A stretch of DNA of 37,945 nucleotides. Origin: Thermoproteota archaeon. Lineage in GTDB: Archaea > Thermoproteota > Bathyarchaeia > Bathyarchaeales > Bathycorpusculaceae. The notes beneath the pieces are model-generated. The model was given only the letters and a program-made list of their open reading frames with translations. It did not search any database and had not been told where the DNA came from. The position numbers and the translations under genes are program-made. This document shows, one piece after another, positions 208-26,620 of the stretch. The stretch is taken from contig JAAZBP010000084.1 of the NCBI GenBank assembly GCA_012513715.1, positions 1 to 37,945 on the forward strand, read 5' to 3'. Position 1 is the first letter of the stretch. Each line of letters starts with the position of its first letter.

Positions 208-1347
208 TTAGTGAACCTCTAAATTTTTAGCAAAAACATCAAACAATAATTCGGTATCATAAGGCCCAGGTGAAGCTTCAGGATGCCATTGCACAGCAAA
301 AACAGGTTTGTTCTTGTGACGAATACCTTCTGTGGTTTTATCGTTTGGGTTTATGAACCAAGGCTCAAGCTGGGTCGCCTTAAGAGATTCCATGTTTATA
401 GCGTAACCATGATTTTGTGTTGTAATATAACAACGTCTATTGATTAAATCAAGCGCTGGCTGATTTTGTGCACGGTGACCGAATTTAAGTTTGTATGTGT
501 CTGCGCCCATAGCCAAAGCGATAATTTGAGCGCCTAGGCAAATGCCCATAACAGGCAATTTTTCACATAATTCTCTTATTGTTGCTACTGTTTGAATACA
601 TTTCTTTGGGTCACCTGGACCATTACTGAGCAAAATGCCATCAGGATTATAAAATAAAACATCATTTGCTGAAGTATCATAGGGTACGCGAACAACGTTT
701 ATTCCTCGTTTAAGCAGATTTCGTATAATACTATACTTTACTCCACAATCAATTAGCACAACTGTTTTTCTCCCGTTAACATTATAGGTTACTGGATTTT
801 TTGTTGTAACTTTCGCCACCAAATCAGTCAGGTTAGGATCAGCGATAGTCTTACAGTTCTCAAGCAAAACATCAAAGTTAGGGTCGTCGTTTTTTTCAAA
901 AACCTGCAGTAAACCAAGCATAACTCCACGGTTTCTAAGTTTCTTAGTTAATCTACGTGTATCTAAACCATAAATTCCAGGTATCCCCTCTCCAGATAAC
1001 CACTCATTTAGTGTACTTGAAGATGCCCAATGATATGGTTCATGGCATAAGTCATGAATTACTAAACCATTGACTTGAATTTTATCAGACTCAAAATATA
1101 AAGGTAAATCTAAATCAAGAACTTTTGATGGAACGCCATAATTGCCTACCAGAGGATAAGTTAAGCTTAAGATTTGACCCTTGTATGATGGATCAGTTAA
1201 AGCTTCTGGGTAACCAACCATCTGGGTTGAAAAGACTACTTCTCCAGAAGTTTTTCCAGTGGCACCAAAACCGTTACCTAGAAATAGTGTTCCGTCTTCT
1301 AGAACCAGAACTGCTTTTTTATTGCCGGTGGAATTAAAGTTTAGTAT
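208..1347 (-). CDS. carA: Carbamoyl-phosphate synthase small (glutaminase) subunit, apparent ATA start
   Basis: This is the glutamine amidotransferase subunit that releases ammonia for CarB, feeding arginine and pyrimidine synthesis. The class I amidotransferase triad is visible: Cys in GICLGAQ (about residue 270) and His/Glu in WHPEA (355/357). The first ATG in frame (1221) would cut off the family's conserved N-terminal strand. The frame stays open upstream and encodes [19 protein letters not shown], just what CarA starts with. Between the upstream in-frame stop and 1221 there is no ATG, GTG or TTG. A strong ribosome site GGAGGG (1358-1353) sits five bases before an ATA at 1347-1345, so I place the start there (379 residues, a normal CarA length). 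A sequencing or assembly error in the start codon is the alternative. The stop is one base before the second carB. Confidence 0.9.
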
Positions 1348-1484: not shown

Positions 1485-4400
1485 TTAGCTTATTTGTAGG
1501 TTTATGTTATTTCGCAATGCATTAGCTAGACTATCAACTAATTCTAAATTCGTGAAAACTGGAACACCCAATTCAACAGCTTTTCTACGAATAAGGTAAC
1601 CGTCTGTAATCGCCTGTGCCACAATTCGATTTGGATGAGGTATATTGAATACAAAATTAATTTTCCGCTCAGCCAAAAGGTCGAGAGCATTAGGTTTCTT
1701 TCCTTCACTTATTTTATAAACTTTCTCGCACACAATACCATTTGCGGTTAATGCGTCAGCTGTGTGGCCAGTAGCAAGTATCCTGTAACCATTGTGCATA
1801 ATTTTTTTGGCAGTCTCAACAGCTTTTTCTTTTTCGCCGCCCACGCTTATAAGTATAGAATCGCCTGGTTTGGGTATTTTTGTACCACCAGCTATCATAG
1901 CTTTCAACAGAGCTTCCTCAAAACTTCTACCGAAGCAAGCAACTTCTCCAGTTGAAACCATTTCTACTCCAGTGATGGGGTCTGCACCCTCAAGACGCAT
2001 AAAAGAAAACTGTGGATATTTAACTCCAAATTTTTCAACTACCGCTTCTCCATCTTCGATTTTCTCGCCTAACATTGCGTTTGCAGCTATATCCATGAGG
2101 TTTTTACCTATTGCTTTGGAAACAAAAGGCATGCTTCTAGAAGCTCTGAGGTTACATTCTATGACGAATACATCACGGTTTTTTACTAAATATTGAATGT
2201 TGAAAGGACCTTTGATACATAGATCTCTTGCTATTTTCCTAGTTATTCTGCGTATCTTCTCTTTAGTTATCTCATCTATTGTCATAGCAGGTAAAGACAT
2301 TGTGGCGTCTCCGGAGTGTACACCAGCATTCTCTACATGTTCGATTATTGCACCTACAAAGACGTTTTCTCCATCGCAGACTCCGTCAACTTCAACTTCT
2401 CGAGCGTTTAACATGAACTTTGAAATCACTACTGGGTGTTCTTTTGAGACATCAGTTGCCTTTTTAAGGTAGTCTTCAAGTTGTGTTTCGTCATATGCAA
2501 CACTCATTGCAGACCCTGATAAAACGTAAGAAGGCCTAATTAGTACTGGATAACCAATTCTACTGGCGAAAACTTTAGATTTTTCTAAACTTTCTAGTTT
2601 ACTCCATTTGGGTTGCTCTATTTCCAAGTCATCTAGTAAATCACTAAATTTAGATCGATCTTCTGCACGGTCAATGTCTTTTGCAGTAGTTCCTAAAAGT
2701 TTTATTCCGTTTGCATCAAGTTTAAGTGCTAAATTGTTGGGTATTTGACCGCCTACACTAACTACTACACTAGGATGATTTTCTTTTTCCACAATGTCTA
2801 GTACACGCTCTAATGTTAACTCTTCAAAATACAGTTTATCTAAAACGTCAAAGTCAGTTGATACTGTTTCTGGGTTACAGTTTATCATAACTACTTCTTT
2901 AATTCCTCTTTCCTTCAAAGCCCAAGTAGTGTTAACGCAACACCAATCAAATTCTACACTAGAACCAATACGATAACAACCTGACCCTAATACGATTGCT
3001 TTGTTTGATTCAGAGAAATTTACTTCATCAGTTTTATCACTGTTGTAGGTACAATAGAGATAGTTTGCTTTTTCAGACCACCGTTTTGCTGTTTGAATTT
3101 GTTTAACTGCAGGTTTAATGTTGAATATTGAACGGAGTTCTCTAATTGTATCTTCATTCTTTCCGAAAAGTTCTCCAATTTTTTTGTCTGAGAACCCGAG
3201 AAGCTTTGCTTTCTTGAGACTTTCTTGAGTTAAGCCTGTCGCAGCTAATTCTTTTTCATATTCAACTATTTTTTTTATGCTCTCAAGAAAGAGGGGCACT
3301 ATTCCAGTTAATCTATTCACTTCTTCAATAGCTATTCCTTTTCGTATGGCTTCAACCACATAAAAAAGACGCTCATCTGTGGGATGTTTTAACTCGTTTT
3401 TAATAATGTTCAAGTCAGTCTCATTGAGTTGATTGGTCAACTCTCTACCGTTACCAATCATTCTTACTGCTTTCTGCAAGGCTTCCTCAAAAGTCTTACC
3501 GATAGACATGACCTCTCCGACAGATTTCATTTGTGTACCTAAACGACGGTTGAGGTTTCTGAATTTCTGGAAGTCCCATCTGGGCATTTTTACTACTATG
3601 TAATCAACAACAGGTTCCAAGATACCTGCAGGTTTCCCAGTGAGTTTATTGACTATTTCAGGTAATCTATAACCTAAAGCCATTTTTGCTGTGACATATG
3701 CAATAGGATAACCAGTTGCCTTAGAAGCTAAAGCAGAACTCCTTGATAATCTTGAATTGACTTCTATTACTTTGTATTCGCCTGTAACTGGGTGAACTGC
3801 ATATTGAATGTTACATTCTCCAACTAGACCAAGAGCTTTCAATACAGCAAAACTAGTAGATTTCAATTTTTGGAATTCTTCATCACTCACGGTTTGAGAG
3901 GGGGCAACTACTATACTGTCACCAGTATGAACACCCATAGGATCAAAATTTTCCATACTGCAAACAATCATGCAGTTATCATCTAAATCTCTCAAAACTT
4001 CATATTCTATTTCTTTCCATTTTCCAACATATTCTTCAACCAAAACCTGAGAGATTCTACTATGAACCAAACCAATCGAAGCAACACGCCGCAACTGTTC
4101 CTCATTAAATGCAGCACCAGTTCCTTGGCCACCTAGAGTGTAGGCTACCCTGACCATTACTGGATAACCTATTTCGTTTGCTGCTCGAACAGCTTCTTCT
4201 ATAGAATTCGCCTTTTTACTTTTTGGGATAGGTACACCAGCGTTGATCATTGTTTTTCGGAAAAGGTCTCTATCATCAGCTTTTTCTATCGCCTCAACGC
4301 TTGTACCTAAAACTTTGACGTTATACTTTTCTAGAATGCCTTTCTCTGCTAGTTCGGTCCCACAGTTCAAAGCTGTTTGACCTCCGAAACCAAGTAAAAT

Positions 4401-4658
4401 CCCATCTGGGCGCTCTTTTTCTATTACTTTTTCAGCGAATTCGGGAGTTATCGGTAAGAAGTAAGCTTTATCGCCAACGAATTTTTTATCAGTTTGTATT
4501 GTAGCTACGTTAGGGTTTATTAAAACAACTTCGATACCTTCTTCTTTTACGGCTTTAATAGCTTGGGCACCTGAGTAATCAAATTCGCCGGCCTCACCAA
4601 TTTTGATAGCGCCGCTTCCAAGAATCAGGACTTTTTTAATATTTTCGAATTTCGGCAT
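1485..4658 (-). CDS. carB: Carbamoyl-phosphate synthase large subunit (complete copy)
   Basis: Full-length CarB of 1057 residues (E. coli CarB is 1073). It has the usual two homologous halves, each with an ATP-grasp domain. The first begins [18 protein letters not shown] and contains NVATIQTD and GGQTALNCG. The second begins near residue 555 with VLGSGCYRIGSSVEFDW and contains NCNPETVSTD. A C-terminal MGS-like domain (from about residue 930, ISVGGEKEKAVETAKK) is where ornithine and nucleotides bind in studied enzymes. The ATG at 4658 directly abuts the argH stop codon, so it is in the argG-argH operon. It is oddly placed upstream of carA while carA has a second carB just behind it. It may serve the arginine branch while the other copy serves pyrimidines, but that is inference. 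Confidence 0.97.
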   Translation of the reverse strand: MPKFENIKKVLILGSGAIKIGEAGEFDYSGAQAIKAVKEEGIEVVLINPNVATIQTDKKFVGDKAYFLPITPEFAEKVIEKERPDGILLGFGGQTALNCGTELAEKGILEKYNVKVLGTSVEAIEKADDRDLFRKTMINAGVPIPKSKKANSIEEAVRAANEIGYPVMVRVAYTLGGQGTGAAFNEEQLRRVASIGLVHSRISQVLVEEYVGKWKEIEYEVLRDLDDNCMIVCSMENFDPMGVHTGDSIVVAPSQTVSDEEFQKLKSTSFAVLKALGLVGECNIQYAVHPVTGEYKVIEVNSRLSRSSALASKATGYPIAYVTAKMALGYRLPEIVNKLTGKPAGILEPVVDYIVVKMPRWDFQKFRNLNRRLGTQMKSVGEVMSIGKTFEEALQKAVRMIGNGRELTNQLNETDLNIIKNELKHPTDERLFYVVEAIRKGIAIEEVNRLTGIVPLFLESIKKIVEYEKELAATGLTQESLKKAKLLGFSDKKIGELFGKNEDTIRELRSIFNIKPAVKQIQTAKRWSEKANYLYCTYNSDKTDEVNFSESNKAIVLGSGCYRIGSSVEFDWCCVNTTWALKERGIKEVVMINCNPETVSTDFDVLDKLYFEELTLERVLDIVEKENHPSVVVSVGGQIPNNLALKLDANGIKLLGTTAKDIDRAEDRSKFSDLLDDLEIEQPKWSKLESLEKSKVFASRIGYPVLIRPSYVLSGSAMSVAYDETQLEDYLKKATDVSKEHPVVISKFMLNAREVEVDGVCDGENVFVGAIIEHVENAGVHSGDATMSLPAMTIDEITKEKIRRITRKIARDLCIKGPFNIQYLVKNRDVFVIECNLRASRSMPFVSKAIGKNLMDIAANAMLGEKIEDGEAVVEKFGVKYPQFSFMRLEGADPITGVEMVSTGEVACFGRSFEEALLKAMIAGGTKIPKPGDSILISVGGEKEKAVETAKKIMHNGYRILATGHTADALTANGIVCEKVYKISEGKKPNALDLLAERKINFVFNIPHPNRIVAQAITDGYLIRRKAVELGVPVFTNLELVDSLANALRNNINLQIS

Positions 4659-6164
4659 TTATTTTCTCACTTTTTTATTAAAGTCATTTTCTACTGATAA
4701 CTCTGAGATAGAATAAGTCTCCACAACATCATTGAGTTGTTTAGCTCTATTTTCATAAGTCTCTTTTATTTTGATAATTTCATCTTTTAGCAGCTGTAAA
4801 GCCTCAACCTTTTTTGCCAAAGTATTTTTAACTATTACCGGTGATGGCCCACCTTTAACCTGATAGGTTTCAACGAGTTTACGCGGATTACTGCATTCAC
4901 CTATATCCTCAGTTTTGACAGTTAACTTTAAGCCTACACTTTCATATGCAAGTTTTTCAATAAGCTGAGGTGTTGTATCAGGCAATGTTTTTTTGGAGGC
5001 GACCAATTCTTTTACTATTGATCCAGTAATTTTGTGAGCTGTACGAAAGGCAATATGATATTTTCTAACTAACATATTAGCTAATTCAGTAGCACCAACA
5101 AAGCCTACAGCTGCCTTATGTTCAACGTTACCTGAAACTTTTAAGTTAGGAATAAGTTTAGTGAAAATATTCAAAGACGCACATAAGTTATTGGTAGCAG
5201 CCCAAAGTTTAGGTGTCATTTCTTGAAAATCGAGGTTATAGGTAGAGGGTAAACTTTTAAGGGCAGCAATTACTGCCACATAGTCACCTATTATATAACT
5301 TGCTCTAGCGCGTATAACCTCAAGAACTTCAGGATTCTTCTTTTGAGGCATTATGCTACTTGTTGAAGTGAATTCATCAGGCAACTCAATTGTACCAAAA
5401 TCTGGTGAACTCCAAACAATTAAGTCCTCAGCTAGACGACTTAAATTCACTGCATTCAAAGCTAAATTAGCTAAAGTTTCAACTATGAAATCTCTACTAC
5501 CAACTGCGTCAATCGAGTTCTCTAGTACATCACTAAAACCTAGAAGTTCAGCAGTCCTACTACGATTTATGGGAAAACTGGTCGTTGCTAATGCACATGC
5601 ACCAAGAGGGCACAAGTTTACTCGAGAATAAGCATCGCGCATACGTTGCAGATCCCGGTCTAGAGCATCAAAATGGGATAGAAGATAGTGAGCAAAAGTT
5701 ACAGGCTGAGCTGGTTGAAGATGAGTATATGCTAATATTACTGTATCAACATGTTTTTCAGCTGTTACCAGAAGACTTTCTTGCATCTTTAATATTTCAA
5801 ACATAATTATTTGAAGTTCTTGACGAAGACGCATTCGGATGGCTGTTGCAACTTGATCATTTCGGCTTTTAGCAACATGCAGGTTCCCACCGATTTCTGG
5901 CCCTGTTTTAGCTAAAACAGACTCTTCTAAAGCCATATGAACATCTTCTGCATGAGGGTCAAGATTACTTGCTGACTGGGTTAAAAGCGCTTTGAGAAGT
6001 TTTACCCCGTCTTGCCAAGGAATAATTTTTTGCTCCATTAACATAACTACATGTGCTTTGTTAATCGAGATTACAGAATCGGATAGACATAAATCATTTT
6101 TTCTTGAAGAGGTAAAAGCGGCAACATCATCTCGAACATCACCCAGTCGTCCACCATGCAGCAT
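4659..6164 (-). CDS. argH: Argininosuccinate lyase
   Basis: Last step of arginine synthesis: argininosuccinate to arginine and fumarate. It belongs to the fumarase/aspartase superfamily, whose three conserved regions are visible: SRNDQVAT (residues 100-107), YTHLQPAQP (146-154, with the His used in the family) and the signature TSSIMPQKKNPE (about 268-279), which carries the catalytic serine loop. At 501 residues it is somewhat longer than the usual 450-470; the extra length is a C-terminal helical stretch. The ATG at 6164 is the only start: an in-frame TAA lies just upstream, and the GGAGGG there is an unusually long 15 bases from the ATG. Its stop touches the carB start and argG lies 44 bases upstream. 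Confidence 0.97.
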   Translation of the reverse strand: MLHGGRLGDVRDDVAAFTSSRKNDLCLSDSVISINKAHVVMLMEQKIIPWQDGVKLLKALLTQSASNLDPHAEDVHMALEESVLAKTGPEIGGNLHVAKSRNDQVATAIRMRLRQELQIIMFEILKMQESLLVTAEKHVDTVILAYTHLQPAQPVTFAHYLLSHFDALDRDLQRMRDAYSRVNLCPLGACALATTSFPINRSRTAELLGFSDVLENSIDAVGSRDFIVETLANLALNAVNLSRLAEDLIVWSSPDFGTIELPDEFTSTSSIMPQKKNPEVLEVIRARASYIIGDYVAVIAALKSLPSTYNLDFQEMTPKLWAATNNLCASLNIFTKLIPNLKVSGNVEHKAAVGFVGATELANMLVRKYHIAFRTAHKITGSIVKELVASKKTLPDTTPQLIEKLAYESVGLKLTVKTEDIGECSNPRKLVETYQVKGGPSPVIVKNTLAKKVEALQLLKDEIIKIKETYENRAKQLNDVVETYSISELSVENDFNKKVRK

Positions 6165-6208: not shown

Positions 6209-7411
6209 TTAGGGTTTCTTGCTCGCTTTCTTAAGTGTATTATAAATTCTGGTTTGCATACCCCATAGTTCTATAAACCCTTTTGAGGATGATTGATCAA
6301 AAGTTGTCTTGATATTATAGTTCGCCAAGTTTTTATCATAAAGCGACATCGGTGATGAACGACCAATAACTTGGAGACCGCCCTTGTAAAGTTTGAGTTT
6401 GACTTCTCCGCTTACTTTTTCCTGTGAACAATTAATAAACGCATCTAAATCATCTTTTAAAGGATCAACCCATAATCCAGCGTACGCTAAGAAAACCCAT
6501 TGGGCATCAATCTGTTGTTTGAATAAAACTTCATGGCGAGTCATAACCATCTTCTCTAAATCTTTATGGGCTTCTAAAATAACAGTCGCAGCAGGACATT
6601 CATAGACCTCACGTGATTTTATTCCCACTAAACGGTCTTCAATATGATCTATACGACCTACACCATGTTTACCTGCTATGCTATTAACTTCTTTAATAAG
6701 TAATAGAGGCGCCATTTTCTTGCCGTTGACTTTGACGGGCACACCTGCCTCAAAAGTTATAGTGATTAACTCTGGTTTGTCAGGTGCTTTTTGGGGTGAA
6801 ACAGTCCAGTCATATGCATCTTCCGGAGGTTCTTGATTTGCATCCTCAAGAAGACCACATTCTATAGCGCGGCCCCAAATGCTAGCATCAATGCTATATT
6901 TTTTTGCATCTTCAGAAATCGGGATTCCTTTTGTTTGTGCATAAGCGATTTCTTCTTCACGTGTTAATCCCCAATCACGTATTGGTGCTAGGACCTTTTT
7001 GTCAGGAGCAAGAGAACTAAGAGTTATATCAAACCGTACTTGGTCATTTCCTCTTCCTGTACAACCATGAACTAAACCTGTGGCACCTTCCTTTGCTGCG
7101 ATTTCAACCATTTTTTTGGCGATTAATGGTCTGGATAGACTTGTGCTTATTGGATATTTACCTTCATAAAGAGCATTAGCTTTGATTGCTGGAAAAACAT
7201 ATTCTTTTGCGAATTCTTCTTTGGCGTCAATTGAAAAATGTTTGATAACCCCAAGTTTTTGGGCTTTTTCTTCTGCTGCTTTTAGGTCTTCACCTTGACC
7301 AACATCAACTGTTACAGTAATTACTTGCGCATTACATTTCTCTTGGAGGTATTTGATTAATACTGATGTATCTAATCCTCCAGAATAAGCTAACACGAAT
7401 TTTTCAGACAT
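6209..7411 (-). CDS. argG: Argininosuccinate synthase
   Basis: Condenses citrulline and aspartate using ATP. The N-terminal PP-loop AYSGGLDTS (residues 8-16) and the following VTVDVGQGED are diagnostic. The segments VHGCTGRGNDQVRF, APIRDWGL and the C-terminal WGMQTRI fit the family, and 400 residues is the normal length. It is the first gene of the minus-strand operon argG-argH-carB-carA-carB. The leader ends in a strong ribosome site (GGGGGAG, about eight bases before the ATG). Its promoter region (7465-7525) shares a long block with the lysW promoter and is divergent from the HTH-ACT regulator at 7538. The missing ornithine carbamoyltransferase (argF) is not in the window. Confidence 0.98.
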   Translation of the reverse strand: MSEKFVLAYSGGLDTSVLIKYLQEKCNAQVITVTVDVGQGEDLKAAEEKAQKLGVIKHFSIDAKEEFAKEYVFPAIKANALYEGKYPISTSLSRPLIAKKMVEIAAKEGATGLVHGCTGRGNDQVRFDITLSSLAPDKKVLAPIRDWGLTREEEIAYAQTKGIPISEDAKKYSIDASIWGRAIECGLLEDANQEPPEDAYDWTVSPQKAPDKPELITITFEAGVPVKVNGKKMAPLLLIKEVNSIAGKHGVGRIDHIEDRLVGIKSREVYECPAATVILEAHKDLEKMVMTRHEVLFKQQIDAQWVFLAYAGLWVDPLKDDLDAFINCSQEKVSGEVKLKLYKGGLQVIGRSSPMSLYDKNLANYNIKTTFDQSSSKGFIELWGMQTRIYNTLKKASKKP

Positions 7412-7464: not shown

Positions 7465-7526
7465 TATTTTTAAACGTTGTGACTTTTTTGCCACTTAAGA
7501 AGCTTTAAATGTACCATTTGATACAT
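7465..7526. promoter_or_regulatory. Divergent promoter/operator of argG and the HTH-ACT regulator
   Basis: A TATA-like box faces each way: minus-strand GTTTAAAAATA (7475-7465), giving argG a leader of about 34 bases, and plus-strand CTTTAAAT (7503-7510), whose predicted start lies only a few bases before the regulator ATG at 7538. Between and over them are two dyads: TTGTGAC (7477-7483), six T, GCCACTT (imperfect), and a perfect ATGTA-N8-TACAT (7509-7526). Bases 7468-7525 align without gaps to 26030-26087 in front of lysW at 44 of 58 positions. The TATA-to-ATG distance is also matched (64 versus 63 bases). It probably binds an amino-acid-responsive repressor; which one is not visible. Confidence 0.75.
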
Positions 7527-7537
7527 CACACAAACAC

Positions 7538-8116
7538 ATGACAATAGCACAGAATGTTCGAAACCATCTACGAAATAAGCCATATTTACTGGAAGCTTTA
7601 GAAAAAGGCATCGTAAATCTAAGCGAACTTTCAAGACAGATTCAAAAAGAACTAAAAACAGATAATGCAAGTGCAATTAAAGCTGCTTTGAGACGATATT
7701 CTGAGGAACTACAGAAACACAGGCAAAAAAGGGAAGAAAAAGTCCTTCAACTTCTAAAACGCAGCGGAATAGCGATTTATGACCGTAAATCAGTAATTAT
7801 CACCTCAAAAGAACTTGAATCAAATACAGGAATGAAAGTTGATTTACTAGATAAATTTGTTTATCTCCTTGATAGAAGCGATTTACCTGACCGAATAAAT
7901 GCATTGGTTAAACACGAAAATTGTACGATGATGGTAATTCATTCTCCAGAGGAATTAGAAGCAACACCAGGTGTCGTAGCATTTTTAGCCACATTACTCG
8001 CAGAACAACACATTAACATTGTTGAATTCATATCCTGTTGGACTGAAACTATAATGGTAGTTGATAAAAAAGACAGCCTAAAAGCATACGAAGTTCTATC
8101 TAACTTAATGGGTTGA
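7538..8116 (+). CDS. ACT-domain protein with N-terminal helix-turn-helix-like region (probable amino-acid sensor/regulator)
   Basis: 192 residues in two parts. Residues 1-75 are helical and basic and read like an HTH (LEKGIVNLSELSRQIQKEL, then AIKAALRRY). Residues about 110-190 have the ACT pattern (TMMVIHSPEELEATPGVVAFLATLLAEQHINIVEF), the family that binds free amino acids. No catalytic domain is present. It is the first gene ahead of threonine synthase, homoserine dehydrogenase and aspartate kinase, and faces argG across a shared promoter. It is therefore a good candidate for the regulator that links arginine and aspartate-family synthesis. The predicted transcript is nearly leaderless. 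DNA binding is inferred from the HTH-like segment only; it could act solely as a ligand-binding protein. Confidence 0.75.
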   Translation: MTIAQNVRNHLRNKPYLLEALEKGIVNLSELSRQIQKELKTDNASAIKAALRRYSEELQKHRQKREEKVLQLLKRSGIAIYDRKSVIITSKELESNTGMKVDLLDKFVYLLDRSDLPDRINALVKHENCTMMVIHSPEELEATPGVVAFLATLLAEQHINIVEFISCWTETIMVVDKKDSLKAYEVLSNLMG

Positions 8117-20307: not shown

Positions 20308-21435
20308 TTACTTAATCCCAGCTTTACTGTTGTGTAATTCAGATATTTTGATAATTGTTTCTTTATAGATTTGGATGGCATTAAGGTAATCGCTTATTTT
20401 AATGTGTTCGTCGAGTGTGTGATCAAGGTGTGAATCACCAGGACCATAGGTTACAATTGGCAAATTCATAGAATTACCTAAGATGTTCATGTCACCTGTG
20501 CCTGTTTTACGTAACAAAGTAGCTGGTTGATTGAGCACTTTTCTAACTGCTGACGACATAACATGAACTAAAGGTAAAGATTTGTTGGCTTCAAAAGGTT
20601 CAACAGTATCTAAAACTGAGGCTTTAACATTAACATTAGGGTGGACTTTCTGGTAGTTTGCTATTATTTTCATCATTTTGTCATAAACTTGTGTTGTCGT
20701 AAATTGTATTGGAACACGGACGTCAAGGTTCATTTCAGCCTCAAAAGGAATAACAGAGTTTCCTCTGCCCCCAATCATTCGTACTAGACATGCAGTAATT
20801 GCGGTAAAAGGAGTTTCTTGGGGTTCAATAGAAGGATAAGTACAAGCTGCTTTGATTGTTTCCCAGAGTTGATATGCTTTCTCTAAAGCGTTATCATAAA
20901 GCCAAGGAGTCGAAGAGTGACCAGTTTCAGTTTTAACTACAATTTTAAGTTGAATTTGTCCTTTGTAACCGATGGTTATGTTTTCGACACCGCTCGGTTC
21001 GCCGAATATTGCGTAATCTGCTTTGATTCCTTGTGTAATCAAATGGCGAACACCCTTACTAGTTGCCTCTTCCTCTACGACGCTGGCAACCAAAATTTTA
21101 CCTTTAAAGTTAGGTTCCTTTGATGCTTCAAGTGCAGCCATAACCATGGAAGCTAAGGGCCCTTTCGCGTCTACTGCGCCGCGAGCATAAATTTTACCTT
21201 CCTCTATTCTAAGCGGCATGTGGCCGGCTACAGTGTCCATATGACCACACAGTAAAATTACAGGTTCTCCTTCTCCGACAACCCCAATGACGTTTCCTAT
21301 CATGTCTATTCCGACTTCAAAACCCATCCGTTTCATTTCAAGGGCTAAAAAATTGGCTATGTCTTGTTCTTTGCCGGATGGACTATAAATGCCCAATAGG
21401 TTAGTTAGAAATCGTACTGCTGCTTGCTCGTCCAT
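20308..21435 (-). CDS. lysK: [LysW]-lysine/[LysW]-ornithine hydrolase
   Basis: Zinc peptidase of the M20/ArgE-DapE family that frees ornithine or lysine from the LysW carrier. Seen: LLSIYSPSG-type opening (LLGIYSPSGKEQD), LLCGHMDTV with the metal His and Asp, EEEATSKGVRHL with the general-base Glu pair, EPSGVENITIGYKGQ, and GTGDMNILG near the end. The frame opens at 21459, but GGAGGAAG lies nine bases before an in-frame ATG at 21435, so the protein starts MDEQAAVRF (375 residues). It still overlaps the end of the aminotransferase by 35 bases. It is last in the LysW operon. Whether it acts on ornithine, lysine or both cannot be told from sequence alone. Confidence 0.93.
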   Translation of the reverse strand: MDEQAAVRFLTNLLGIYSPSGKEQDIANFLALEMKRMGFEVGIDMIGNVIGVVGEGEPVILLCGHMDTVAGHMPLRIEEGKIYARGAVDAKGPLASMVMAALEASKEPNFKGKILVASVVEEEATSKGVRHLITQGIKADYAIFGEPSGVENITIGYKGQIQLKIVVKTETGHSSTPWLYDNALEKAYQLWETIKAACTYPSIEPQETPFTAITACLVRMIGGRGNSVIPFEAEMNLDVRVPIQFTTTQVYDKMMKIIANYQKVHPNVNVKASVLDTVEPFEANKSLPLVHVMSSAVRKVLNQPATLLRKTGTGDMNILGNSMNLPIVTYGPGDSHLDHTLDEHIKISDYLNAIQIYKETIIKISELHNSKAGIK

Positions 21436-22615
21436 TACTTTCTTCCTCCAAAGCCGCATCTAAAGCGGTTATTGCTACATCTATTTGTTGTTTAGTTATA
21501 ACTAGAGGCGGTAGTAACCGAATAACTGTTCTTCCAGCATCCAATACTAATACACCTTTAGCTATCGTCTTCATGAGCACGCCATAAACATCGTAGCGGA
21601 GCTCCATCCCCAGCATTAAGCCTAAACCGCGGATTTCCTTTACAATTTTATGTTTAGAACATAATTCTTCAAGACGTGTCTTGAAGTAGGCACCGTTTGC
21701 AACTGCATTATCTGCTAGTTTTTCTTGTATCAGAACATCAATCGCAGCGCAACCAGCTGCACAAACAAGAGGACTACCACTGAAAGTTGTTGAGTGTTCA
21801 CCAGTCTTAAAAGCTGACATTATATCCTCTCTGGCGATTGTGATTCCGATAGGTAACCCGCCGGCGAATGGTTTAGCTAAACACATGACATCAGGAGTCA
21901 CATTCCAGTTTTGACATGCAAACAGTTTTCCTGTTCGTCCAAAGCTTGATTGCACTTCATCAAAAATCAAAAGAATACCTTTTTCATTGCAGATTTCGCG
22001 GACTTCCGGAAGATAACCGTTTGGTGGCACACGTACTCCTCCTTCACCACGAATAGGCTCCATTATTACGGCTGCTGTCTTATCGGTTATAGCTTCACGT
22101 ATTTTGTCGGGGTTATCTGGAGCAACATGTTTGATGTCGGGTATAAGTGGCTGAAATGGTTCACGGTATTTTTTATCCCAAGTTAAAGATAAGGCACCCA
22201 TAGTTTTACCGTGGAATGCCCCCATTAAACCGATTATTTCAGTTTTACCTGTGGCTTTACGGGCTAGTTTTATTGCGCATTCAACTGTTTCCGCTCCGCT
22301 GTTAGAGAGAAAAGCTTTGTCTAAACCTTTAGGGGTTATTCTGACAAGTTTTTCTATAAATTCTGCTCGTTTATCATTGTAATAGCAACTGTGACAGGTT
22401 ATTAGATTTTCAACTTGAGCTTTCAAGGCTTCAACAATTTTTGGGTGACAATGACCAAGGGCTGCTACACCGTAGCTGCTGGCGCAGTCAATGTATTCTT
22501 TACCGTTAATATCCCACAGTAAAGCACCTTTACCGTGAGTAAGAACAAGTGGTTTTTTAGAGAAAACGTTAGCTAAGTTGCGATTTTCGATAGCCATAAT
22601 TTCTTGGTCATTCAC
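21401..22615 (-). CDS. lysJ: [LysW]-aminoadipate/glutamate-semialdehyde aminotransferase
   Basis: Class III PLP aminotransferase (ArgD/LysJ group) that aminates the carrier-bound semialdehyde. Typical segments are ECAIKLARKATGKTEII, FHGKTMGALSLT, LIFDEVQSSFGRTGKLFA (Asp contacts the PLP ring) and CLAKPFAGGLPIG with the Schiff-base lysine. 404 residues is normal. The frame starts with GTG at 22615, overlapping the kinase stop by eight bases; an ATG six codons later (22597) is an alternative, and neither has a strong ribosome site, which suggests translational coupling. It sits between lysZ and lysK. Confidence 0.95.
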   Translation of the reverse strand: MNDQEIMAIENRNLANVFSKKPLVLTHGKGALLWDINGKEYIDCASSYGVAALGHCHPKIVEALKAQVENLITCHSCYYNDKRAEFIEKLVRITPKGLDKAFLSNSGAETVECAIKLARKATGKTEIIGLMGAFHGKTMGALSLTWDKKYREPFQPLIPDIKHVAPDNPDKIREAITDKTAAVIMEPIRGEGGVRVPPNGYLPEVREICNEKGILLIFDEVQSSFGRTGKLFACQNWNVTPDVMCLAKPFAGGLPIGITIAREDIMSAFKTGEHSTTFSGSPLVCAAGCAAIDVLIQEKLADNAVANGAYFKTRLEELCSKHKIVKEIRGLGLMLGMELRYDVYGVLMKTIAKGVLVLDAGRTVIRLLPPLVITKQQIDVAITALDAALEEESNGRASSSTISN

Positions 22616-23426
22616 TAGTAATCACAGTACCTGTTTGATGATTAAGAACAGAAGATATAGGTTTTTTTGCAGTGCCTGAAGTTACAAGGACTTCTTTAAC
22701 ACCTTGATTTAGAGCCTCAAGACCTGCATGAACTTTAGTGCTCATTCCGCCGCCAATTTTATTTAGAACCTCTTTAACTTCAGTAGCAGCGATTTTTGGT
22801 ACACATTGTCCTTTAAGCATTAAACCTTCTACGTCAGTAAGTAAAATCAGTTTGTCTGCTTTTAATGCACCTGCAATTATTGCTGCAGTACGGTCACCGT
22901 CAACGTTAAGCGGTTCATAGTCTTGGCTTATCGCGATAGGCGTCACAATTGGCACATAACCATTAGTTATCAACATCGTCAGTAGTTCAGTGTTTACTTG
23001 GGTGATTTTGCCTGTATAACCACCGTCAATAACTTTTTTTCGGCCTCTTTCATCGACAGCTATTAATCGGGTTTTACGTTCAGCTTTAAGAGTCATTGCG
23101 TCTAGACCGCTTAAACCTACTGTTGGAATCCCTTGGCGCTGTAAAGCTAATACGATTTGTTTGTTAATTTTACCTGCCATAACCATTGTGTAGATTTCTA
23201 TGGTTTCTTTGTCTGTGTAACGACTTCGAAAGCCGTCAGGTGACATAATGAATTTTTGTTCTTTGCCTAGTTTAGATGCGATTTCAGTTACTTCTACTCC
23301 ACCGCCGTGGACCAGGACAATTTTGTGTTGATTTAAGATTTCTTTAAGGTCACTAACTAGGTCAGCTGATGCGCCTTCTTTTAGAATACTACCGCCCATT
23401 TTAATTACTAACAACATCGTTATCAC
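22608..23426 (-). CDS. lysZ: [LysW]-aminoadipate/glutamate kinase
   Basis: Amino-acid kinase of the ArgB/LysZ group that phosphorylates the side-chain carboxylate of the carrier-bound substrate. Seen: VIKMGGSILKEG at the start, LVHGGGVEVTEIA, the NVDGDRTAAIIAGALKADKLILLTDVEGL nucleotide region and GGGMSTKVHAGLEAL near the end. 272 residues is normal. The first start is a GTG (23426) overlapping the argC TGA. An ATG three codons on (23417) is preceded by GTGAT and may be the real one. It shares the overlapping operon structure of its neighbours. Confidence 0.95.
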   Translation of the reverse strand: MITMLLVIKMGGSILKEGASADLVSDLKEILNQHKIVLVHGGGVEVTEIASKLGKEQKFIMSPDGFRSRYTDKETIEIYTMVMAGKINKQIVLALQRQGIPTVGLSGLDAMTLKAERKTRLIAVDERGRKKVIDGGYTGKITQVNTELLTMLITNGYVPIVTPIAISQDYEPLNVDGDRTAAIIAGALKADKLILLTDVEGLMLKGQCVPKIAATEVKEVLNKIGGGMSTKVHAGLEALNQGVKEVLVTSGTAKKPISSVLNHQTGTVITSE

Positions 23427-24478
23427 ATCGGATGGAATCCAGTGCTCTTAATACCGGTGGTTTCGTCTATGTCCATAAGTAAGTTAAGACATTGCACACC
23501 TTGCCCTGCGGCACCTTTTACCATGTTGTCAATTGCGGAGAAAATTAAGAGACGATTTACTCGCTCGTCTATTTCGAAGCCGATGTCGCAGAAGTTTGTG
23601 CCTAAAGTTATTTTGGGGTCTGGAAGTTGATATGGTCCTTTCTGGTATTTCACTAAGCGAATAAAGGGTTCAGTTCCATACATTCCGCGAAGAGCTTTCC
23701 AGAGGTCTTTGTTGGTCAAAGGTTGCTTGGGGAAAACATGAATTGTAGAGAGAATTCCGCGTACCATATTTACTGCATGTGGTGTGAAGCCAATTTTAAC
23801 AGGTTCATCACTTAACGCAGTTAATTCTTGTTCAACCTCTGCTGTGTGCCGGTGACCCACAACTTGGTATGGACGAACTCCACCGGAACGTTCAGGATGA
23901 TGAGAAGCAAGAGTAGCTTTGCTTCCGCCTCCTGAACTTCCAACTTTGAGGTCTACAATTATTTTGTTATTTTCCACTAAACCATCTTTTATTATTGGTG
24001 CTAAGCCTAAAATTGCGCTTGTCGCCATACAGCCTGGACAAGCAACTAAGTTAGCCTGCTTGATTTCTTCACGGTGAAGCTCAGGTAAACCATACACTGC
24101 TTCTTTAAGCATCTCGGGATGAGCATGAGACCAACCATAGTATAGGTCATAATCACTTGGATTTTTAAGTCTAAAATCTGCACTCATATCAATTACTTTT
24201 AGACCTGCTTCTAAGAGTTTAGGCACTAAATTTACTGAGCCGCCATGCGGAGTTGCAGTGAAAACTAAATCACAGTTCTTCTGCAATTCATCCATGTCCT
24301 GTGGAACAAACTTCAGTTGTGTTAGACCCCGCAGATTTGGATGTATATTGAAAATGAATTCTCCTGCACTTTGACGGGAAGTAACCATAGTTACTTCAAC
24401 TTGAGGGTGCATAAGAAGCAAACGTAAAAGTTCACTTCCCACATATCCTGAACCTCCTATTATTCCGATTCTCATCAT
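23423..24478 (-). CDS. lysY: [LysW]-aminoadipate/glutamyl-phosphate reductase
   Basis: NADPH-dependent reductase of the ArgC/LysY group. The Rossmann motif GIIGGSGYVGSELLRL opens the protein. The catalytic cysteine lies in VACPGCMATSAILGL (about residue 148), and VGSSGGGSKA and HRHTAEVEQEL are family segments, the latter with the active-site His. 351 residues is normal. GAGGAAAAAAG precedes tandem ATGs. It follows lysX by 24 bases and overlaps lysZ. Confidence 0.96.
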   Translation of the reverse strand: MMRIGIIGGSGYVGSELLRLLLMHPQVEVTMVTSRQSAGEFIFNIHPNLRGLTQLKFVPQDMDELQKNCDLVFTATPHGGSVNLVPKLLEAGLKVIDMSADFRLKNPSDYDLYYGWSHAHPEMLKEAVYGLPELHREEIKQANLVACPGCMATSAILGLAPIIKDGLVENNKIIVDLKVGSSGGGSKATLASHHPERSGGVRPYQVVGHRHTAEVEQELTALSDEPVKIGFTPHAVNMVRGILSTIHVFPKQPLTNKDLWKALRGMYGTEPFIRLVKYQKGPYQLPDPKITLGTNFCDIGFEIDERVNRLLIFSAIDNMVKGAAGQGVQCLNLLMDIDETTGIKSTGFHPM

Positions 24479-24502
24479 ATCTTTTTTCCTCTTATTGTTT
24501 AG

Positions 24503-25687
24503 TTAATTTCCAATCAGGCTTTGAGCGCCTTTCAACAAGGGTACTGCAAGGTTAAATCCGGTTGCGAGCCGAGTGTTCTCCCAGAATTCTGGGCATGAAT
24601 TTGACTCGTGAAATACTAGGACATTCTTATTATCATCCAAGTTTTCTTCTATTATATTTGTGATGTTTTGGTATGCAACAGAATTTTTATACGTTGCAAA
24701 AGCTTCTTCGAGTTTACTGTTCCACATTTGGAAATCTGTTAGTCGTTTTTCATCCTGCTTGATTTTTTGAACGGGTAGAAACCCTTGAGCGGCTAAATCC
24801 AGTTGAGATTTAAGGTGGGCTTCGTCAACATTTGTATTATCTTTAACGTTAACCATTGCATCAAGAGCAAAAATCCAAGCGTCACTCCCTTCTCCGAGTA
24901 TGTTACCACATTTTACAGATAGATTCTGAACACTTAATGGTAATTTTGCGTGAAAAACTAGGTTGCCGAGAAAAGTGTTTGTTCGGAAGTCTTTGAAACC
25001 TGCGCGGACCATCGCAGTATCGTGGCAAACAGGGAGTTTACCCTTCTCTTTTGATACGATTATGCGTAAATCATAGAACCATTTATGGATTAGTTCCTGC
25101 CCAACCACACCAATAGGATTAATTATAGTTGGTTTTATTTCTTTTATGTTGGTTTCGAGTTCTTCGCGGTTTTTTGATAGCATTATCATTTTGCCGTGTG
25201 TTCCAGAATCAGCTTTTAGGACGACTCCATCCTTGAGTGAAAGTTCTTTTTCAAGAAGGTCAGCGATGTCTTTTTCATTGTTGATTTCTTTGCCATTTTT
25301 CATTATGTCTGTTGCGTCGCAAGGCACGAAAACGGTTTTCGGGATAGGTATGTTTTGTTTGTTGAAGTTAAGTAATGTTCGGAGTTTACTGTAGCAGATA
25401 AACTCGACTTTTGAGGTGTTTAATGTTTTTTTGCCCAAAGATTCCATTAGGTAGGAAGCTTGTAGACGTCGGTTTTTGCTCTGTGCACGGTTAAGAACAA
25501 CTTCAACATCCTGAAAGGTTTTTGTATAGTCTTTACCTTTTGTTGTAGCGCTGAAACCATCTTTAGATATGGATAAGGCGATTTTTCGGAAAGGAAGATA
25601 TATCAGGTTTATTCCGAGTTGTTGGGCAGTAAGTTTGATGCCGTTTTCGTCGCTTTCAGAGCGTTCATATAAAAGTGCAATACTCAT
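24503..25687 (-). CDS. lysX: LysW ligase (LysX/ArgX-type ATP-grasp) with an extra C-terminal insertion
   Basis: ATP-grasp ligase that would attach glutamate or 2-aminoadipate to the C-terminal Glu of LysW. The family plan is visible: LNRAQSKNRRLQASYLMESLG, VVLKADSGTHGKMIML, FYDLRIIVSKEKG, the metal-site region ALDAMVN (near 274-280) and the closing ESNSCPEFWENTRLATGF (361-378). Typical LysX proteins are about 280 residues; this one has 394. The excess is a block at about 279-356 (VDEAHLKSQLDLAAQGF to IIEENLDDNKN) inserted between the last two metal-ligand segments. Identity rests on the ATP-grasp pattern plus its place directly after lysW and before lysY. Substrate choice (glutamate versus aminoadipate) is not decided. 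Confidence 0.85.
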   Translation of the reverse strand: MSIALLYERSESDENGIKLTAQQLGINLIYLPFRKIALSISKDGFSATTKGKDYTKTFQDVEVVLNRAQSKNRRLQASYLMESLGKKTLNTSKVEFICYSKLRTLLNFNKQNIPIPKTVFVPCDATDIMKNGKEINNEKDIADLLEKELSLKDGVVLKADSGTHGKMIMLSKNREELETNIKEIKPTIINPIGVVGQELIHKWFYDLRIIVSKEKGKLPVCHDTAMVRAGFKDFRTNTFLGNLVFHAKLPLSVQNLSVKCGNILGEGSDAWIFALDAMVNVKDNTNVDEAHLKSQLDLAAQGFLPVQKIKQDEKRLTDFQMWNSKLEEAFATYKNSVAYQNITNIIEENLDDNKNVLVFHESNSCPEFWENTRLATGFNLAVPLLKGAQSLIGN

Positions 25688-25758: not shown

Positions 25759-25974
25759 TTATTCGCCCCAGTCTTCGCCTTCAATAGTTAATTCTTGAAG
25801 GTCTACGCATCCGCTTTGGATTTGTTTGACTTCGAGTTCAAGTCCGCAACTAGGACAACTTAGGATTTCTCCTTTTTCTATATCTTTTGGAATGTCGAGT
25901 TCTGCATCACAGTCTGGGCATTTTGCTTTGATGATAGCATTCATCTCTTCGGGTTGATTTGCTTGTTTAATCAT
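25759..25974 (-). CDS. lysW: LysW-type amino-group carrier protein
   Basis: Small acidic carrier (71 residues) to whose C-terminal glutamate the substrate is linked. Two CxxC pairs form the zinc ribbon (Cys 19/22 in KCPDCDAELD and Cys 40/43 in SCPSCGLELE). The protein ends GEDWGE, the hallmark tail of LysW. Family members are about 55 residues, so the start may be the ATG ten codons on (25944, MNAIIKAKCPDC). The predicted transcript start near 26005 allows either. It heads the operon lysW-lysX-lysY-lysZ-lysJ-lysK. With argG, argH and carAB in the window, at least the arginine branch must be served. Lysine as well is possible, as in archaea where this set is bifunctional. Confidence 0.93.
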   Translation of the reverse strand: MIKQANQPEEMNAIIKAKCPDCDAELDIPKDIEKGEILSCPSCGLELEVKQIQSGCVDLQELTIEGEDWGE

Positions 25975-26025: not shown

Positions 26026-26087
26026 TATCTTTTAAACATTGTGACTTATTTGTTACAACTTAAACTTTTAATGTTCTATTTGATGCA
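26026..26087 (-). promoter_or_regulatory. lysW operon promoter/operator, matching the argG promoter
   Basis: Minus-strand TATA box GTTTAAAAGATA (26037-26026), 63 bases before the lysW ATG. Directly upstream lies a near-perfect dyad TTGTGAC-TTATTT-GTTACAA (26039-26058; six of seven pairs) and then TTTTAATGT and ATTTGATGCA. The whole block 26030-26087 aligns without gaps with 7468-7525 before argG (44 of 58). The dyad touches the TATA box, a position suited to repression. Confidence 0.75.
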
Positions 26088-26209: not shown

Positions 26210-26620
26210 ATGGATGATAAAGACAAACAAATCATCAAAATACTAAAAGAAGACTCCAGGGCAGGATACAACAACATCGGCTCAGAAATAGGTTTATCTG
26301 AAGGAGCCGTACGCAAAAGAATTAAAACATTGATTGATGAAGGCACAATAAAGAAATTTACTGTTAAATTAGGCGTTGCTGAGGGCGCCCAAGCTATTAC
26401 TTTACTCACCACAAACCCCGCATATCCAACACTAGAAGTATCTAAAAAAATCCGGGACATCCCCCATGTTGAAACAATCTATGAGGTAACAGGGGAATAT
26501 GACATAGTTGCAGTAATCACTGGTATGAATGTTGTAGAAGTTAATGAGTGTATAGAGAAAATTCGCAGAGTAGAGGGAATAATGAAAACCAACACTATGA
26601 TAGTTCTACACAATTGGTGA
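26210..26620 (+). CDS. Lrp/AsnC-family transcriptional regulator (LysM-like position)
   Basis: 136 residues. The N-terminal winged HTH is plain (DDKDKQIIKILKEDSRAG, IGSEIGLSEGAVRKRIKTLIDEGTIKKF). The C-terminal RAM/ligand domain follows (PHVETIYEVTGEYDIVAVITG). Family members bind amino acids and DNA as dimers or octamers. In Sulfolobus the Lrp protein LysM sits by the LysW genes and controls them with lysine. The same placement, divergent from lysW, argues for a similar job here, perhaps sensing lysine or arginine. The ATG follows GGCGAGAAGA. The 3' end overlaps the convergent DUF523 gene by 15 bases. Confidence 0.93.
   Translation: MDDKDKQIIKILKEDSRAGYNNIGSEIGLSEGAVRKRIKTLIDEGTIKKFTVKLGVAEGAQAITLLTTNPAYPTLEVSKKIRDIPHVETIYEVTGEYDIVAVITGMNVVEVNECIEKIRRVEGIMKTNTMIVLHNW

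Follow-up and report, generated by a model that had tools for sequence, protein, structure and literature searches.

Bacterial ArgR/ARG-box regulons place dispersed arginine genes under one operator. In Sulfolobus, arg promoters carry an 'ARG box', through which the arginine and LysW genes have a common promoter element. LysM of Sulfolobus acts at lysW in an activating role (PMC2995911, PMC8578740). Operators of the archaeal Lrp proteins Ptr2, FL11 and Ss-LrpB consist of regular dyads that lie close to the promoter at spacings of two or three turns (PMC2995911). Joint control of arginine and LysW genes in archaea, as by Sulfolobus LysM, is already a known kind of regulation.

The window analysed here is the whole of contig C36 (37,945 nucleotides), which belongs to a genome of 2.13 Mb that is 91.7% complete. 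It contains an argGH-carBA operon and a LysW operon that are each preceded by a 58-bp block. As in Sulfolobus/Saccharolobus, the LysW operon is accompanied by the gene of a LysM-like, putatively amino-acid-responsive Lrp, the putative operator lies beside BRE/TATA, and arginine and LysW genes have a promoter element in common. In contrast to LysM-lysW of Sulfolobus, the favoured candidate regulator is a DUF7523-ACT protein and not an Lrp, the dyads are different and have a fixed two-dyad layout, and the targets include a structured RNA and an orphan lysW. Evenly spaced dyads by the promoter also characterize the bipartite operators of Ptr2, FL11 and Ss-LrpB; here, the favoured ACT-domain protein belongs to another family. 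The resemblance to the bacterial ArgR regulon lies in a single operator for dispersed arginine genes, probably together with an arginine signal and autoregulation, whereas no ArgR is implicated and operator sequence and architecture appear to differ. As far as our analysis shows, novelty lies in the regulator family, in the layout with two dyads and, most of all, in the RNA targets; a limited literature search for Bathycorpusculum and arginine found nothing. The results provide an uncultured archaeal class with a specific operator, a small set of targets and a possible sensor from a family without an assigned function.

Likeness and anatomy of the argG and lysW blocks

A recount of the two blocks gave the 44 identities over 58 ungapped positions that had been reported originally. 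This pair ranks second among the 58-mer self-matches of the window, the top match (47/58, 115 versus 4567) being between two carB-type genes. Over 1000 dinucleotide shuffles of the block, the number of identities reached anywhere in the window averaged 31.8 and peaked at 38, and the binomial expectation for a 44/58 match is about 2e-9. The block was kept in all 19 argG upstream regions of the Ca. Bathycorpusculum family (Bathyarchaeia), our own locus included, and in 30 of 30 fetched lysW upstream regions, with lysW of G032 and G034 in addition. Information per column reaches 1.60 bits in the argG block and 1.45 bits in the lysW block versus 0.35 in the preceding 60 bases, and the edges are sharp. 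As shuffles did not exceed 38 identities and conservation spans the block, a likeness due to chance or to the TATA box alone was rejected, and the early judgement that the match is far more than a shared TATA sequence was borne out. The distances to the start codon that had been given with it (64 and 63 bases) need correction: the gene-side edge of the block is 56 bases from the ATG of argG and 55 from that of lysW, and the earlier count seems to have begun at the edge of the TATA box that faces away from the gene. Positions 3-206 of the window, past carA, hold the beginning of a second carB-like gene that resembles the carB start at 4658.

Table 1. Genes and promoter elements of the two loci (window coordinates)
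Feature	Coordinates	Strand	Evidence or remark
argG, argininosuccinate synthase	6209..7411	-	TIGR00032, 527.7 bits
argH, argininosuccinate lyase	4659..6164	-	TIGR00838, 470.4 bits
carB, carbamoyl-phosphate synthase large subunit	1485..4658	-	TIGR01369, 1433.8 bits
carA, carbamoyl-phosphate synthase small subunit	208..1221	-	TIGR01368, 419.8 bits
DUF7523-ACT protein, favoured candidate regulator	7538..8116	+	Pfam DUF7523 44.1 bits and ACT_7 37.7 bits, both above cut-off
lysW, amino-group carrier protein	25759..25974	-	NF041070, 65.2 bits (cut-off 75); Zn_ribbon_LysW, 46.5 bits, above cut-off
Remainder of LysW cluster (lysX-like ATP-grasp, lysY/argC, lysZ/argB, lysJ/argD and lysK/argE types)	20308..25687	-	Pfam
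LysM-like Lrp regulator, divergent from lysW, rival candidate	26210..26620	+	NF040947, 174 bits (curated cut-off 180)
argG block (argGH-carBA operon), 58-bp operator-promoter	7468..7525	-	44/58 to lysW block; 19 loci; 54 bits with profile R1
argG distal dyad TGTATCAAATGGTACA	7510..7525	.	Symmetry centre 8.5; between TATA box and start of divergent ACT gene
argG proximal dyad AAGTGGCAAAAAAGTCACAA	7477..7496	.	Alignment; abuts argG TATA box, overlaps BRE position
argG TATA box GTTTAAAA	7468..7475	-	Alignment of 49 sequences
ACT-gene TATA box, probable (CTTTAAAT)	7503..7510	+	Sequence; kept in argG blocks adjoining ACT gene
lysW-operon block, 58-bp operator-promoter	26030..26087	-	30 lysW loci plus G032 and G034; 58.9 bits with profile R1
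lysW distal dyad TGCATCAAATAGAACA	26072..26087	.	Symmetry and alignment
lysW proximal dyad TTGTAACAAATAAGTCACAA	26039..26058	.	Symmetry and alignment
lysW TATA box GTTTAAAA	26030..26037	-	Alignment

Gene annotation confirmed that a candidate regulator gene diverges from argG and another from lysW, as the original prediction had it (Table 1). The lysX-like gene of the LysW cluster (24503-25687) is unusually long (394 aa) and scores 76.9 bits with the LysX model, against a cut-off of 275.6; its product may act on either glutamate or aminoadipate.

Read toward the gene, the block comprises a distal dyad (TGTACCAAATGGTACA, block positions 1-16), a proximal dyad (TTGTAACAAATAAGTCACAA, 30-49) and the TATA box (GTTTAAAA, 51-58), of which TTTAAA never varies across the 49 aligned blocks. 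The symmetry centres of the dyads fall at block positions 8.5 and 39.5. The separation of 31 bp, or three turns, puts both dyads on the same face of the DNA, adjoining BRE/TATA, and their left half-sites (TGYANCAAAT) recur at 30 bp. Dyad symmetry by itself is not outstanding, as it is sometimes reached by column shuffles, and it is clearest in copies of the lysW2 type (TTGTGACATAAATGTCACAA). The TTGTGAC-N6-GTTACAA dyad described at the outset is good at lysW (+ strand), whereas at argG of the window its second arm is degenerate (GCCACTT). This proximal arm (7490-7496) contains GTGGC, in place of which the 18 relatives have mostly GTAAC or GTTAC and, in one case, GTGAC. The ATTTGAT element noted at the same time is present at both loci, and the distal dyad that encloses it had been overlooked. 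In a group of lysW operators (L061-L065, L068-L070 and L051) the cores of both dyads have jointly gone over from AAAT to ATTT, which would fit recognition of the two by a single protein.

Halfway along the argG block lies the element ATTTAAAGCTT, which probably serves the divergent ACT gene as its TATA box; it is absent from the lysW block. Blocks of argG that no longer adjoin the ACT gene have lost this element (L015, L022 and, partly, L024), and ACT genes that are parted from argG keep it together with the distal dyad (L121, L124 and L125). Its position about 30 bp before the ATG implies a leaderless message.

Operator sites in the genome and in relatives

Profile R1 was built from sequence only, on the 49 argG/lysW blocks, and was run on the 61 genomes in which argG and lysX had been searched for and, in a more sensitive search, on the own genome. 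There it detected six sites at E < 0.1, namely lysW, argG, a second, orphan lysW (C170) and three sites on C245, C8 and C21 with no reading frame after them. E-values were 3.5e-9 for the second lysW (lysW2) and 1.1e-5, 1.4e-4 and 0.015 for the three RNA copies described below. Matches in relatives were found at lysW2, carA, ACT-gene and RNA promoters, and a matrix applied to loci totalling 0.68 million positions gave nothing above 0 except operator sites. Random scatter of the matches and a lack of conservation in relatives had been named beforehand as outcomes speaking against an operator; the profile matches are not random and the block is kept in relatives. Its range, among the genomes examined, is confined to the Bathycorpusculum family. 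A DNA similarity search with the block returned the block itself and two chance matches, and a pattern search using a 16-bp core gave mostly noise.

Conservation and genome scans thus strongly support, at the level of sequence comparison, an operator common to the arginine and LysW operons. The membership found is that of an arginine regulon, with the operator common to argG/carA, lysW, lysW2 and the ACT gene; the argF, argJ-type and lysine genes that had been expected to belong to it are not included. As for argF, the gene is present, but it has no nearby R1 site among the own-genome matches and was rejected as a member. The orphan lysW (L103:1634-1816, C170) encodes 60 aa and has its own operator copy, and similar orphans occur in G013, G017, G022 and G024. 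In genomes without argG (G010, G012 and G031), sites are found ahead of carA or carB, from which the ACT gene diverges. At three such loci (L123, L128 and L129) it is carB or carA that now stands under the operator, and argF stays. Several of the named argG-less genomes are termite-gut isolates, and the pattern suggests that the last steps of arginine synthesis were lost. In G003 and G017 only, an operator copy is found 30 bases ahead of a TFS-like zinc-ribbon gene (L119 and L120).

Candidate regulators of the operator

Sequence comparisons across families favour the DUF7523-ACT protein over the LysM-like Lrp as the regulator. An ACT orthologue (63-92% identity) exists in every family genome that holds a strong argG/lysW block, and the named relatives with a 77-92% identical protein are Candidatus Bathycorpusculum and other Bathyarchaeota. 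Five families (f1, f3, f5, f6 and f9) have this gene oriented divergently to argG. In f3, f5, f6 and f9, the distal dyad of argG follows the form GACC-N-GGTC (the GACCANTTTNGGTC type) and is accompanied by a proximal element next to the TATA box; by our own measurement, the dyad centres at L037 (f9) are about 30.5 bp apart. The proximal element of relatives outside f1 is frequently a half-site only. Where the ACT gene and argG have become separated, the distal dyad is retained at each. One possible reading of the f1 block is that it represents an altered form of this older argG operator, to whose targets lysW, lysW2 and the RNA were later added. To our knowledge, DUF7523 has no established DNA-binding function. 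The N-terminus of the ACT protein appears helix-turn-helix-like in our own reading, and a PDB sequence search with the protein gave weak matches only, either unrelated or to aspartokinase ACT domains.

We consider it fairly probable that promoter and bipartite operator are combined in the block and that the DUF7523-ACT protein binds there cooperatively, with arginine-dependent repression and autoregulation. Dimers or a tetramer of this protein would occupy both dyads cooperatively. Its ACT domain would bind arginine, or possibly lysine or a related amino acid, arginine being suggested as the signal by the targets and by the ACT domain. The amino-acid-bound protein would then cover BRE/TATA of the target genes and repress them, and occupancy of the distal dyad would lead to repression of its own leaderless gene. 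The LysW carrier pathway and the arginine branch, which it supplies, would be controlled jointly, and copies of a class-wide RNA would have been brought under the same control in the Bathycorpusculum family. The placement of the proximal dyad over the BRE position and of the distal dyad between the TATA box and the start of the ACT gene fits repression and negative autoregulation; activation in place of repression, on the analogy of LysM in Sulfolobus, may also be considered.

We regard as unlikely the alternative that the block is bound by the LysM-like Lrp whose gene diverges from lysW and that this protein controls the arginine and LysW genes as an activator or repressor. That lysM diverges from lysW in nearly all family genomes and the NF040947 score of its product (Table 1) both point to it, as does a promoter-adjoining pair of sites with three-turn spacing, which is typical of archaeal Lrp proteins (PMC2995911). 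In family f6, however, lysW has no block although LysM (60% identity) is still divergent from it, so that the operator does not follow LysM across lineages; this comparison presumes that LysM specificity is unchanged at 60% identity. Conversely, the block is kept at lysW of G034, where lysM is located elsewhere. No lysM neighbours the lysW2 loci, argG or the RNA sites, and the TATA box of lysM itself is about 120 bp off.

Slightly less probable again is a third, unlinked regulator, such as another Lrp or a growth-rate factor, for which the arginine genes would be part of a wider, RNA-containing regulon. The case for it comes from G018, which has RNA copies with the operator, yet no ACT, LysM, argG or lysX orthologue was found there, from genomes in which RNA copies are the most numerous extra targets, and from the block before the TFS-like gene. 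But G018 is also without a thrC orthologue, which indicates that a region of 30-60 kb was lost or unassembled, so the absence of the regulators may be an assembly gap; moreover, the ACT gene keeps the distal dyad in several argG-less genomes, suggesting autoregulation. That the block is no more than a strong core promoter, made up of BRE, TATA and an upstream element and free of any regulator, is highly improbable. The invariant part is indeed the TATA box plus AA of the BRE, but conserved sequence extends over about 58 bp and includes a distal dyad at 40-60 bp from the TATA box, and the block is limited to a handful of functionally linked genes, with only about six sites in one genome of 2.1 Mb.

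A structured RNA downstream of operator copies

The operator sites that lack a reading frame are followed by a conserved sequence of about 230 nt. Its consensus RNA fold contains 60 pairs, of which 37 are changed on both sides, and two pseudoknots were added by eye (loop CAGC with GCUG and loop ACGGC with GCCGU). With the pseudoknots included, 92.3% of cells pair, against 31-39% for slid controls. Compensatory (double) changes occur at 41 of 69 pairs versus 22.2 in shuffles. Both tests used the alignment that had yielded the structure, which works in its favour. A coding explanation was rejected on account of the strong compensatory pairing and the absence of a conserved reading frame. Short relatives of 133 nt have a folding z of about -8. 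As searches of Rfam 15 over the RNA copies (E up to 0.5 and 5) returned no relevant match, the RNA is apparently undescribed, judged by Rfam 15 and a limited literature search. Control in common with arginine synthesis offers a regulatory clue to this RNA and makes its function testable.

A covariance model located the RNA in 22 of 40 near genomes and, across the class, in 63 of 250 sampled genomes (18 of 107 genera); no copy was detected in many argG-less genomes of the genus. The operator precedes 20 of the 23 full-length copies of the genus that score above 100 bits, 23-25 nt before the 5' end. The three copies without it (C235 of the own genome, G014 C8 and G016 C1:1120049) have a promoter with TTNTGCAAAA and then TATA, like copies elsewhere in the order. 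This order-wide type of promoter implies that the RNA predates its link to the operator and that the operator-driven copies are an addition of Bathycorpusculum. We tentatively picture a class-wide RNA of Bathyarchaeia, built of one or two pseudoknotted modules (about 133 or 230 nt), that was copied in Bathycorpusculum under the arginine/LysW operator and would respond to amino-acid starvation, with DUF7523-ACT as a new kind of arginine regulator; taken as a whole, this picture is possible but falls somewhat short of probable. The copies of the own genome are located at L105 C8:3727-3960, L104 C245:4803-5029, L106 C21:68-302 and L153 C235:2833-3054.
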